This document shows, piece after piece, positions 16,889 through 49,395 of a DNA stretch of 52,066 nucleotides. A program made the position numbers and the translations under genes. The notes beneath the pieces were generated by a model. The model was given only the letters and a program-made list of their open reading frames with translations. It did not search any database and was not told the DNA's origin. This DNA is from a bacterium. GTDB lineage: Bacteria > Patescibacteriota > Minisyncoccia > Phycocordibacterales > UBA1550. The stretch spans positions 1-52,066 of the forward strand of contig JAUSES010000063.1 in assembly GCA_030649835.1 (NCBI GenBank), given 5' to 3'. The stretch's first letter is position 1. Every line of letters starts with the position of its first letter.

Positions 16889-17151
16889 ATCCCGTTAGAA
16901 GTCGCCTGCCCACTTTCGCCAGAACACAAAGTTGAGCTCAAGTGATGGCGGGCGGGCATAGTTCAGCTATTTCTACTGATGGAGGAAGTCGAATGTCCAG
17001 ATATTTTTTTCACTAGTCGTTAAACAAATACGGAAGTTCACGCGCTAAATAATTGAGATTTAGCTATCATATGAAAATTACTAGATATTATGAATACACA
17101 CGATACAATTACAGATACAGTCGCGCGTGAGCTTCCTACTTCTAACGGGAT
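16889..17151 (+). repeat. CCCGTTAGA inverted-repeat element, copy E1 (long)
   Basis: ATCCCGTTAGAAGT (16889-16902) / ACTTCTAACGGGAT (17138-17151), perfect 14-bp arms; right arm lies inside the atpB reading frame. Confidence 0.85.
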
Positions 17152-17875
17152 TCATATTTCGCTTTCGGCAGAACAAATAGGGACTCTGTGGGGGATTCCC
17201 GTCACAAATACAATGCTCATGAGCTTTATCGTGTTTGCACTTCTCGCAATCCTTGCGTTTTTTGTACGCAAAAATCTCGCACTCATTCCGGGGCGACTCC
17301 AGACGGCGGTAGAGACACTTTTTGTCGGTATTCTTGACTACATGACGGAGACCCTAGAGGATGCAAAGCTCGCACGAAAACTTTTTCCGCTCATCCTCAC
17401 TATTTTCCTTTTTATTTTTACCGCAAATATTATTGAATTTACTCCGGGGATCGGAAGTATTGGCTGGACGCACGGAGGGGAGTTCACGCCGCTCCTTCGC
17501 TCGATGAATACTGACCTGAACACAACACTTGCGCTCACGATCATTGTCTTTATTGTTATTGAGGTGGTCGGGGTGGCAACATTGGGCTTCTTGAAATATG
17601 GCAAGAAATTTGTTAATGTTACCTCGTTCCTGGGTTTTTTGGTGGGCATTATTGAGCTTTTTTCCGAAGTAGCGCGTTTGGTCTCGTACTCGTTTCGTCT
17701 TTTCGGAAACATCTTTGCGGGAGAAGTGATGATTTTAGTTATTCAGCACTTTGTACCCATGGTACTCCCCGTCCCCATTATGCTCTTTGAGGTTTTCGTC
17801 GGTTTTATACAGGCGGCAATCTTTGCGCTCCTCACACTCTTCTTTGTGAAGATTGCGGTCACGCCGGCGCATTAA
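17090..17875 (+). CDS. atpB: F0F1 ATP synthase subunit a
   Basis: LFSEVARLVSYSFRLFGNIFAGEVM; followed by atpE/F/H/A. Confidence 0.95.
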   Translation: MNTHDTITDTVARELPTSNGIHISLSAEQIGTLWGIPVTNTMLMSFIVFALLAILAFFVRKNLALIPGRLQTAVETLFVGILDYMTETLEDAKLARKLFPLILTIFLFIFTANIIEFTPGIGSIGWTHGGEFTPLLRSMNTDLNTTLALTIIVFIVIEVVGVATLGFLKYGKKFVNVTSFLGFLVGIIELFSEVARLVSYSFRLFGNIFAGEVMILVIQHFVPMVLPVPIMLFEVFVGFIQAAIFALLTLFFVKIAVTPAH

Positions 17876-18028
17876 CGAGGTTTAAGGTGTTAGGTTTTAG
17901 CTTTTAGGAGGACACAGGGCGTGTTATCTTAAAAACTAATACCTATCAGGTTTTAGTTTAATATGATTATTAGTTAATTTAGTATTTTGAGTTTTAGCTT
18001 TGCGGTGTTGTGGAAAGTAGAGACTTTT

Positions 18029-18058
18029 CCTAACACCTAACACCTAAAACCTAAAAGC
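18029..18058 (+). repeat. CCTAACA/CCTAAAA heptad repeat leader upstream of atpE
   Basis: CCTAACACCTAACACCTAAAACCTAAAAGC shortly before ATG 18068; partly complementary GGTGTTAGGTTTTAGC at 17886. Confidence 0.8.
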
Positions 18059-18067
18059 TTCCCAAAT

Positions 18068-18295
18068 ATGGATATTGAAGTAGCAAAAACATTAGGCATG
18101 GCACTCGCAGTGGGTCTTGGGGTTATTGGTCCCGGAATCGGTATCGGTCTCATTGTTGCAAAGGCGCTTGAGGCTATCGGAAGAAACCCAGATGCATCAG
18201 GTAAGGTACAGGCAACTATGTTCATTGGTATCGCCTTTACAGAAGCACTTGCAATTTTCGCGCTCGTCATCGCATTCATCGTTAAGTTCGCATAA
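18068..18295 (+). CDS. atpE: F0F1 ATP synthase subunit c
   Basis: 75 aa, [57 protein letters not shown]. Confidence 0.97.
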
Positions 18296-18310
18296 TCAGC
18301 ATACATTCAC

Positions 18311-18754
18311 GTGGAACAGATCATCTCAGTATTCGGTATCAATTGGAAACTCCTCCTCATTCAGGGGGTAAACTTTGGTTTGCTTCTTTTTATTCTTCAT
18401 CGTTATCTTTACAAGCCAGTAATCGCTATGGTGGACGAGCGTCGTGAAAAAATTGAAAATGCCATAAAAGATTCCGAGCGGATGGAGGTGGAGCTCGGCC
18501 TTGCGGAATCCGAAAAAGCTCGTATTGTCCGTGAAGCAACAGTAAAGGGTGATGAGCTCATTGACGCTGCAAAAAAACACGCAGAAACTGCCGAGGCTAT
18601 GATGATGAAAGATGCACACAGAAAAGCAGTACATCTTTTGAACGAAGCAGAGCACCGTACAAACCGCGAGCATGATGAAATGCTCCAAAACGCTGAGCGT
18701 GAGGTCGCGCGCATGGCAGTGTTGTCTGCAGAGAAAATTTTGCGTAAAGCATAA
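18311..18754 (+). CDS. atpF: F0F1 ATP synthase subunit b
   Basis: N-terminal TM segment then long charged helix; operon position. Confidence 0.92.
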   Translation: MEQIISVFGINWKLLLIQGVNFGLLLFILHRYLYKPVIAMVDERREKIENAIKDSERMEVELGLAESEKARIVREATVKGDELIDAAKKHAETAEAMMMKDAHRKAVHLLNEAEHRTNREHDEMLQNAEREVARMAVLSAEKILRKA

Positions 18755-18760
18755 CCATGA

Positions 18761-18882
18761 ATCCCGTTAGAAGCCGCGGTCGCTTCGTGGAAGAAAAATA
18801 TATGAAAAAAAGTCGAACAAAATTTATTAAAAATAACATAATGCAAGGGCTTCGCGCGAGCGCGACCTGCTTCTAACGGGAT
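18761..18882 (+). repeat. CCCGTTAGA inverted-repeat element, copy E2
   Basis: ATCCCGTTAGAAGCCGCGGTCGC / GCGACCTGCTTCTAACGGGAT; right arm runs into atpH ATG (18881). Confidence 0.92.
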
Positions 18883-19282
18883 GAAAGCATCATGGTACGC
18901 AGAGGCGCTTTACGGAGCGCTCAAAGAAGTTGCTACGGAGGCGGAGTCAAAAAAAGTTTTTGTCAGCTTTCGGAAGGTTCTCTTAACGCGAGGGCACGAA
19001 AAACTTCTACCATTTATTTCGCGCGAACTGGAGAAAATTCTTATTCGCGAGAAGAACAATAATGAAGTGATTTTGGTAACCGCAGATGCAAAGAGTAAAA
19101 ACAAATGGTCCCATGCATATGACCATTATGAAAAAGAAGGGACAATTCTCAAAGGCGCTATTCGTCAAGACAAAGTAGATGAATCAATTGTTGGAGGATT
19201 CCAAATAAGAATGAAAGGAACATTAATAGACGGCAGTTACAAAAAATCCCTAGTCGAACTTTATCGCAACGTCACTAATTAA
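18881..19282 (+). CDS. atpH: F0F1 ATP synthase subunit delta
   Basis: GFQIRMKGTLIDGSYKKSLVELYRNV; operon position. Confidence 0.85.
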   Translation: MKASWYAEALYGALKEVATEAESKKVFVSFRKVLLTRGHEKLLPFISRELEKILIREKNNNEVILVTADAKSKNKWSHAYDHYEKEGTILKGAIRQDKVDESIVGGFQIRMKGTLIDGSYKKSLVELYRNVTN

Positions 19283-19293
19283 TAGGACACGAG

Positions 19294-47984: not shown

Positions 47985-48050
47985 TAGATAGTCCGTAGTC
48001 GCAAATAATTTATTTTTGTTACTCCCCGCACCCCACGAAGCTAGACGAAA

Positions 48051-48097
48051 CTAGGTATCTACCTATAGCATACTATACGCTATAGGTAGATACCTAG
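48051..48097. repeat. 19-bp perfect inverted repeat, 9-nt loop
   Basis: CTAGGTATCTACCTATAGC-ATACTATAC-GCTATAGGTAGATACCTAG. Confidence 0.9.
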
Positions 48098-48140
48098 AGT
48101 TCTGGAATTTACTGTATAAGTTTGCTACAATATCAAAATG

Positions 48141-48264
48141 GATCCCGTTAGAGGTCGTAACTGTTATATTTTGACATCACGGGTTTTGAAAAGGAATACG
48201 TAGAAATTTTACTAATTATTAATTAGCTACGGAAACGCACAGCGTTTCCTACCTTTAACGGGAT
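48141..48264 (+). repeat. CCCGTTAGA inverted-repeat element, copy E6
   Basis: ATCCCGTTAGAGGT (48142-48155) / ACCTTTAACGGGAT (48251-48264); internal GGAAACGC-ACA-GCGTTTCC; runs into mgtC ATG (48263). Confidence 0.92.
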
Positions 48265-48751
48265 GGACTTCACAACAATATTCACAGGCCAAGATTTAGA
48301 AATTACTTTAAAACTTTTCATCGCGCTTTTTCTTGGTATGTCGCTTGGTATTGAGCGCGCCATTGCAGGCAAAACCGCAGGGATGCGCACCTACGGACTT
48401 GTTACTATGGGTTCTACACTTTTTGTGATAGTCGGCGTTCTTGCGTCAGGTGGGTATGTAAGCGCGACTGGGATATTTACCGATTCATCAGCACGCATCA
48501 CCGCAGCGATTATTCAAGGCATTGGCTTTATTGGTGCAGGACTTATTTTCTTTAAAGTAGGAGATGCAAAAGTGAGCGGAGTCACGACAGCCGCGGGAAT
48601 TTGGGTTTCTGCTGGCGTGGGAGTAGCAATAGGTTATGGGTTTTATGCGTTAGCGATTATTTCAACAATTTTCACCCTCTTTGCTTTCACCGGTCTTTGG
48701 TATATTGAGAATAAAGTGAAGGCGTTTGCTCATTTTCCCGACGAGGACTAA
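48263..48751 (+). CDS. MgtC/SapB family membrane protein
   Basis: LFLGMSLGIERAIAGKTAGMRTYGLVTMGSTLFVIVG, ARITAAIIQGIGFIGAGLIF. Confidence 0.93.
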   Translation: MDFTTIFTGQDLEITLKLFIALFLGMSLGIERAIAGKTAGMRTYGLVTMGSTLFVIVGVLASGGYVSATGIFTDSSARITAAIIQGIGFIGAGLIFFKVGDAKVSGVTTAAGIWVSAGVGVAIGYGFYALAIISTIFTLFAFTGLWYIENKVKAFAHFPDED

Positions 48752-48764
48752 TTTTGCTCGCATA

Positions 48765-49193
48765 ATGTATATGATTTACATCTACGCGTTTCTTTCGGCA
48801 TTTACGGCAGCGCTTGTGGCTATTTTTGGCAAGCTTGGTTTAAAAAATATTGATCCAACTCTTGCTACCACCGTACGCTCCATTATCATGGCAGTCTTTT
48901 TGGTCGGGGTTGCATTTATGTTTAAAAAATTCGATGGATTTTCTCTTTCATCATTTACTGGTCGTGAATGGATACTCATTTCGCTCGCTGGCGTCGCGGG
49001 CGCACTGTCATGGTTATTTTACTTTCTTGCTCTTCGTGGCGGAACAGCGTCGAGCATTGTTGCCATAGATAGGTTGAGTATAGTTTTTGTTATCATTCTC
49101 GCGGCCATTTTTCTTGGAGAGGCACTTACATGGAAGACCATTCTCGGTTCCGCGCTCGTGGTTGTGGGTGCGCTTTTTATTGTATTGAAATAA
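48765..49193 (+). CDS. EamA family transporter (half-size)
   Basis: AFTAALVAIFGKLGLKNIDPTLATTVRSIIM, SIVAIDRLSIVFVIILAAIFLGE. Confidence 0.88.
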   Translation: MYMIYIYAFLSAFTAALVAIFGKLGLKNIDPTLATTVRSIIMAVFLVGVAFMFKKFDGFSLSSFTGREWILISLAGVAGALSWLFYFLALRGGTASSIVAIDRLSIVFVIILAAIFLGEALTWKTILGSALVVVGALFIVLK

Positions 49194-49200
49194 CAGACGA

Positions 49201-49258
49201 CCGCGCCAACTATCACCAAGTCACAGCTATAGCTGTGACTTGGTGATAGTTGGCGCGG
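49201..49258. repeat. 58-bp perfect palindrome, no loop
   Basis: CCGCGCCAACTATCACCAAGTCACAGCTA|TAGCTGTGACTTGGTGATAGTTGGCGCGG. Confidence 0.97.
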
Positions 49259-49291
49259 GTTGGGCTCTTAGTGTAAGATACAAGGATACTT

Positions 49292-49395
49292 GCCCCGTTG
49301 AGAGTCTTCCCTGAAATGTTCGGTGAATTAGAAAAAACGCACGGTTTTAAATGGCAATTAAATATATTTATATGGAAAAAACTTCTACTGGGATG
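49292..49395 (+). repeat. CCCGTTAGA-like element, copy E7 (degenerate)
   Basis: GCCCCGTTGAGAGTCTT / ACTTCTACTGGGATG; ends at the probable alaS start (49393). Confidence 0.6.

Follow-up and report, generated by a model that had tools for sequence, protein, structure and literature searches.

The dispersed inverted repeat carried by this stretch of DNA (52,066 nucleotides in total, hereafter the window) is almost certainly a mobile element that inserts at the start codons of genes, judging from the structure of its copies and of their insertion sites. A mobile hairpin targeting translation starts was one of two roles suggested in the initial annotation, and it is the one that the analysis supports: copies are bordered by 4-bp target site duplications (TSDs), congeners carry empty sites, and about two thirds of the copies lie in start codons in a single orientation. 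All seven copies previously recognised in the window are present, and are as follows, together with the small ORF of the second:

16890 to 17150, + strand: copy 1, inserted in the reading frame of atpB (ATP-synt_A) close to its N-terminus and supplying the start codon at 17090; TSD TTCA at 16886-16889 and 17151-17154.
18762 to 18881, + strand: copy 2, within the atpH start codon, with empty sites in congeners; TSD TGAA at 18758-18761 and 18882-18885.
18802 to 18876, + strand: small ORF MKKSRTKFIKNNIMQGLRASATCF of copy 2, which stops at the right-arm TAA, 4 nt upstream of the atpH ATG.
19294 to 19415, + strand: copy 3, within the atpA start codon; the left duplication has decayed in this genome.
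31257 to 31306, + strand: copy 4, a minimal form of 48-50 bp without a TSD, inside a YchF-type GTPase gene (30601-31752).
47020 to 47118, + strand: copy 5, a degenerate one at an ATP-cone/Mrr-type gene start, with an in-frame upstream ATG at 47097.
48143 to 48263, + strand: copy 6, within the mgtC start codon; TSD TGGA at 48139-48142 and 48264-48267.
49292 to 49393, + strand: copy 7, at the beginning of alaS and likewise degenerate, with an in-frame upstream ATG at 49351.

The arm pair is exact or near exact in five of these seven, the others being the two degenerate copies. As previously described, the right arm leads into the ATG of atpH, atpA, the ATP-cone/Mrr-type gene, mgtC and alaS, and in copy 2 the terminal base A of the element is also the A of the atpH ATG. 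The shortest and longest versions exist as proposed, but their settings had to be revised: the 50-bp version (copy 4) lies in frame within the YchF-type GTPase gene, to which it adds 16 residues, and the long version is a 259-bp copy which is in frame at the atpB N-terminus and not at an ATG. The minimal form of 48-50 bp, again without a TSD, was also seen in loci L012 (5500-5547), L013 (3232-3279), L024 (3037-3084) and L032 (3110-3158), and at times sits within other copies or, in frame, within genes. The sequence ACTTG precedes the left arm without a matching right-hand duplication at window positions 47014-47020 and 49286-49292, and in L007, L110 and L026. Elsewhere in the window, the ORF at 30104-30529 contains four tandem in-frame 42-nt repeats (30273-30440).

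Within the window alone, 9-mers with one mismatch are at chance level (22 against 19.2 expected). A search for the arms in the whole genome and in relatives, which the initial annotation had proposed as a check, found the repeat to be genome-wide and conserved beyond the window. On the two strands of the source genome there are 57 exact arms CCCGTTAGA, against five matches to a reversed-pattern control. Of 286 genomes in the class, 109 carry the 14-mer YCCCGTTAGARGYM, for which relatives gave zero control matches, and the full arm pair at a spacing of 70-100 bp was found in 13 of 61 relatives and never in controls. A scan of GTDB species genomes returned at least 114 stretches. Among the matches listed, the informative titles are nearly all Patescibacteria, with one Nitrospirae and one Planctomycetota record, both perhaps misbinned. 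No match to the element was found in viral contigs, and no published description of it in a literature search conducted largely outside subscription journals.

To characterise the element, 198 distinct copies were gathered from the window, the source genome, its relatives and the GTDB scan by their arms alone and blind to genes. The true ends are YCCCGTTAGARG...CYTCTAACGGGR, and an exact 4-bp TSD flanks them in 123 of the 198 copies (chance 1/256). In 195 copies the two terminal bases can pair with each other (T/A in 124, C/G in 71). Empty sites are seen in the atpH and atpA orthologues of the same genus; at atpH, G009 reads AATAAC-ATGAAAGC where the source genome reads ATGAA-T[CCCG...CGGG]A-TGAA, and at atpA, G010 reads ACCATTC-ATGAAC. 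The atpA copy is common to the congener G008, in which its duplication is intact (ATGAA). The short copies, of about 115 bp, are MITEs by structure, being short, with terminal inverted repeats and a TSD, and without a transposase. In G008 and G011 (L170 and L174), TAACGGG lies immediately 5' of the atpH ATG with no element present; this looks like the footprint of a lost copy, the TAA of which now terminates the upstream gene.

An ATG or GTG that opens an ORF of at least 40 codons adjoins 132 of the 198 copies, with the gene facing one fixed end of the element. In the source genome, 16 of the 24 copies of the set are at starts. The new start codon (110 ATG and 22 GTG) is made up of the last base of the element and the duplicated TG, such that a terminal A keeps ATG and a terminal G gives GTG. 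An A precedes the TSD in 95% of the 87 start-site copies with an intact TSD, and so the old ATG remains on the far side. The motif YAG follows the arm at 101 start-side ends compared with around five far-side ends. Before insertion, these sites have a -10-like sequence shortly upstream of the ATG at a frequency of 0.52, against 0.34 at other starts, and few SD motifs, suggesting that the element may make use of the promoter of its host gene. A conserved leader peptide read from the old ATG (MNPVR...) was considered and rejected, as lengths vary and there is no conservation.

This distribution may reflect retention instead of targeting, if only those insertions that preserve translation of the gene survive. 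We give this reading somewhat less than an even chance, and it is compatible with the explanation favoured here apart from the targeting step. Retention would be expected to produce both the fixed orientation and the bias of ORFs toward the TAA of the arm (see below), and some copies, mostly C/G-ended, are indeed found away from starts at GTTGAC, GTCAAC or TATG sites. However, the same DNA contains 385 ATGRA sites at first ATGs, 915 in intergenic sequence and 4692 within genes, and insertions at ATGRA number 74 at starts against approximately four elsewhere; the intergenic sites outnumber the start sites, yet are nearly free of insertions, which counts against retention.

Many of the short copies hold an ORF of 10-28 codons which ends on the right-arm TAA, 4 nt before the gene start (TC-TAA-CGGG-ATG). 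An ATG ORF reaching this TAA is present in 48 of 100 dissimilar start-site copies, compared with 13.8 (21 at most) when the centre is dinucleotide-shuffled and 15 in the antisense direction; the non-start copies have such an ORF in 9 of 49 cases against 5.2 when shuffled. The openness is frame-specific, with the last 60 nt open in 53, 31 and 16 copies by frame. With an ORF, either this one or that of the nuclease described below, reading up to the gene start, stop-start coupling is possible. A promoter inside the short element could not be demonstrated, as -10-like sites do not exceed the antisense and shuffled levels; upstream of the small-ORF ATG they number 21 against 14.9 in shuffles, which is at the top of the shuffled range and not convincing.

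The other role suggested in the initial annotation was a cis-acting RNA that gates initiation, and in this case a long-range stem at gene starts would have been spread by duplication. The arms do covary: two types of pair occur at each of positions 1, 11 and 13, and of 128 pairs 0, 3 and 5, respectively, are broken. In selecting the copies a single mismatch was tolerated in each 11-base arm, a filter that does not extend to positions 1 and 13. Complementarity therefore matters, which speaks for this reading. The wobble pairs, however, have no strand preference (sense G.T 11 against A.C 7, and 36 against 38 in the extended stem), and because they are as frequent in the sense as in the antisense direction, the covariation does not point to RNA. 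No described RNA family in Rfam matches the element, its positions vary among congeners, and the insertion duplications, in-frame coding copies, non-start copies and nested copies fit a mobile element instead. A regulatory RNA was thus not borne out, and we consider it highly improbable.

Long copies, mostly of 274-281 bp, have the same ends as the short copies, and their sole ORF encodes a GIY-YIG protein of approximately 85 aa. It matches the Pfam GIY-YIG family (PF01541) with E values of 1e-14 to 1e-18, and residues Y5, Y16, R24, R26, H30 and E62 are invariant across 19 nuclease proteins, a set which includes the GIY-YIG active-site residues (two Tyr, Arg, His and Glu). The best PDB match of the predicted fold (pLDDT 91.7) is UPF0213 BH0048, followed by Slx1 and then I-TevI, and both fold and catalytic residues place the protein in the GIY-YIG family. 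Of the 20 nuclease loci listed, 19 end in FLSLT, mostly as GKRYLKNRLKRFLSLT (the exception is L268, with different ends), 11 have an exact TSD, and in 15 the nuclease stop is a TGA that overlaps the target ATG or GTG. In seven copies that keep the old ATG, the nuclease frame can be read from it, and in L088, L303 and L306, where there is no internal ATG before the domain, the ATG of the target is the only start. In the source genome, a 327-bp nuclease copy, itself carrying a further insertion, separates the argS promoter from argS; in relatives the same promoter type is directly upstream of the argS start and unsplit.

We propose that the 274-281 bp nuclease copy is the autonomous form of the element and that the short copies are non-autonomous derivatives of it. 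The right end of a short copy often translates as R-[DF]-L-[LP]-L-T-G, in the frame of the nuclease R-F-L-S-L-T-G, which is consistent with common descent of the two forms, LTG being forced by the arm itself. The search did not recover the FLSLTG nuclease form from all genomes that have short copies. The GIY-YIG nuclease is the likely but unproven agent of movement. Known GIY-YIG enzymes hydrolyse DNA, which counts against such a role, and we know of none that joins ends or leaves fixed 4-bp duplications.

Alternatively, the copies could be ordinary MITEs of another transposase, of the DDE type, with the GIY-YIG gene as a passenger or an invading homing gene. Terminal inverted repeats with a fixed 4-bp TSD are typical of DDE chemistry, and nuclease copies are far outnumbered by short ones. 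On the other hand, none of the arms examined enclose another recognisable transposase, and the DDE search detected neither DDE_Tnp_1 in the source genome nor the IS1380-type PF13701 in 27 high-copy genomes. The short copies share their ends with the GIY-YIG element, the right arm itself encodes the C-terminus of the nuclease, and other GIY-YIG genes too are located within unrelated inverted repeats. We regard this alternative as unlikely. An insertion sequence with a DDE, Y1 or serine transposase between the ends does not fit either, the ORF of the long form being GIY-YIG only, and long-range arm pairs were rejected as autonomous insertion sequences, since they are chance pairs that arise because TGAA/TTCA duplications are common. 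Y1 genes were detected in 167 of 286 genomes.

GIY-YIG genes are found in each of the 30 genomes searched (2-15 per genome; these were chosen mostly for high copy number). Exact inverted repeats of 12-18 bases flank 8 of 26 other GIY-YIG genes, while repeat length reached at most 10 in mismatched controls. CPR GIY-YIG genes lie between unrelated inverted repeats of 9-18 bases in L276, L254, L253, L245, L261, L251, L268 and L248; by sequence reading, L268 and L251 resemble RNase P RNA genes and L248 the 5' region of 16S rRNA, and in L283 the GIY-YIG gene starts right after a tRNA-like sequence that reads as tRNA-Ile. Some other GIY-YIG genes appear to occupy loci for rRNA, RNase P RNA or tRNA. 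The window also has a GIY-YIG gene (PF01541; 4950-5249, minus strand) between copies of another palindromic repeat, TCTTTGCGAGCG..GAAGCAATCC, which occurs at 4917-4947, 5280-5309 and 5318-5348, and elsewhere in the window at 20996, 25994 and 37992. This gene and its palindromes are possibly a second nuclease-palindrome pair.

In the mechanism that we favour, an element with hairpin-forming inverted ends YCCCGTTAGARR...YYTCTAACGGGR would insert by a 4-bp staggered duplication, preferring the target A-TGRA inside gene start codons and a single orientation. As the duplicated TG and the terminal A or G rebuild ATG or GTG, the host protein would be unchanged. The single-domain UPF0213/Slx1-like GIY-YIG nuclease would cleave the target site, the hairpin or cruciform end at its base, or both, driving mobility, and host repair would complete the insertion. 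The nuclease would then stand as an added first cistron under the host promoter, often readable from the old ATG of the host, and because its stop TGA overlaps the rebuilt ATG, the host gene may stay expressed via stop-start coupling. We consider this whole account probable, comprising a hairpin-ended start-codon element, a nuclease-driven long form, short derivatives and stop-start coupling. We lean, more cautiously, toward a new class of autonomous DNA transposon of around 275 bp, whose sole protein is the Slx1-like nuclease of about 85 aa on hairpin ends, which parasitises start codons, taking its own start from the host ATG and its stop from the duplicated TGA, and which is one of several Patescibacteria families with different palindromic ends.

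To our knowledge, the inverted-end elements of bacteria that are autonomous measure at least several hundred bases and rely on DDE, Y1 or serine enzymes. If an element of 275 bp were driven by a single-domain repair-type nuclease, this would represent a new mobilisation principle, and the element would be an unusually small jumping gene should the nuclease prove to mobilise it. Precise insertion into a start codon, with the gene rebuilt, shows one way in which numerous insertions can be accommodated where a genome has little DNA to spare, and is a candidate explanation for doubtful start-codon calls in Patescibacteria genomes with copies.

Several known systems resemble the element in part. 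The accessible part of PMC11270868 describes, in rRNA genes of the same CPR lineage, non-intron GIY-YIG insertions beside uncharacterised, ORF-less ones of <200 bp; that part mentions neither ends nor TSDs nor a rule on start codons, and the element is a candidate explanation for these unassigned insertions. REP/RAYT systems likewise consist of short palindromes mobilised in trans, but the element does not belong with them, as it has a 4-bp TSD, the Y1 genes of the source genome have no arms alongside and Y1 is absent from several high-copy genomes. GIY-YIG homing endonucleases of the I-TevI type and freestanding homing genes also place a GIY-YIG nuclease within a mobile segment. The element, in contrast, has no intron, has inverted ends and duplications, and hits many unrelated genes at a short 4-bp target rather than one long homing site, and its nuclease is closer to UPF0213/Slx1 than to I-TevI in the fold search. 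Bacterial MITEs such as ERIC, Correia/NEMIS, RUP and MITEAba12 are similar in their size (around 100-130 bp), inverted ends, TSD and dispersal, and some are in frame; the element differs from them in its single orientation, in a 4-bp TSD that falls at start codons, and in having a related full-length form that encodes a GIY-YIG nuclease and not a DDE transposase.
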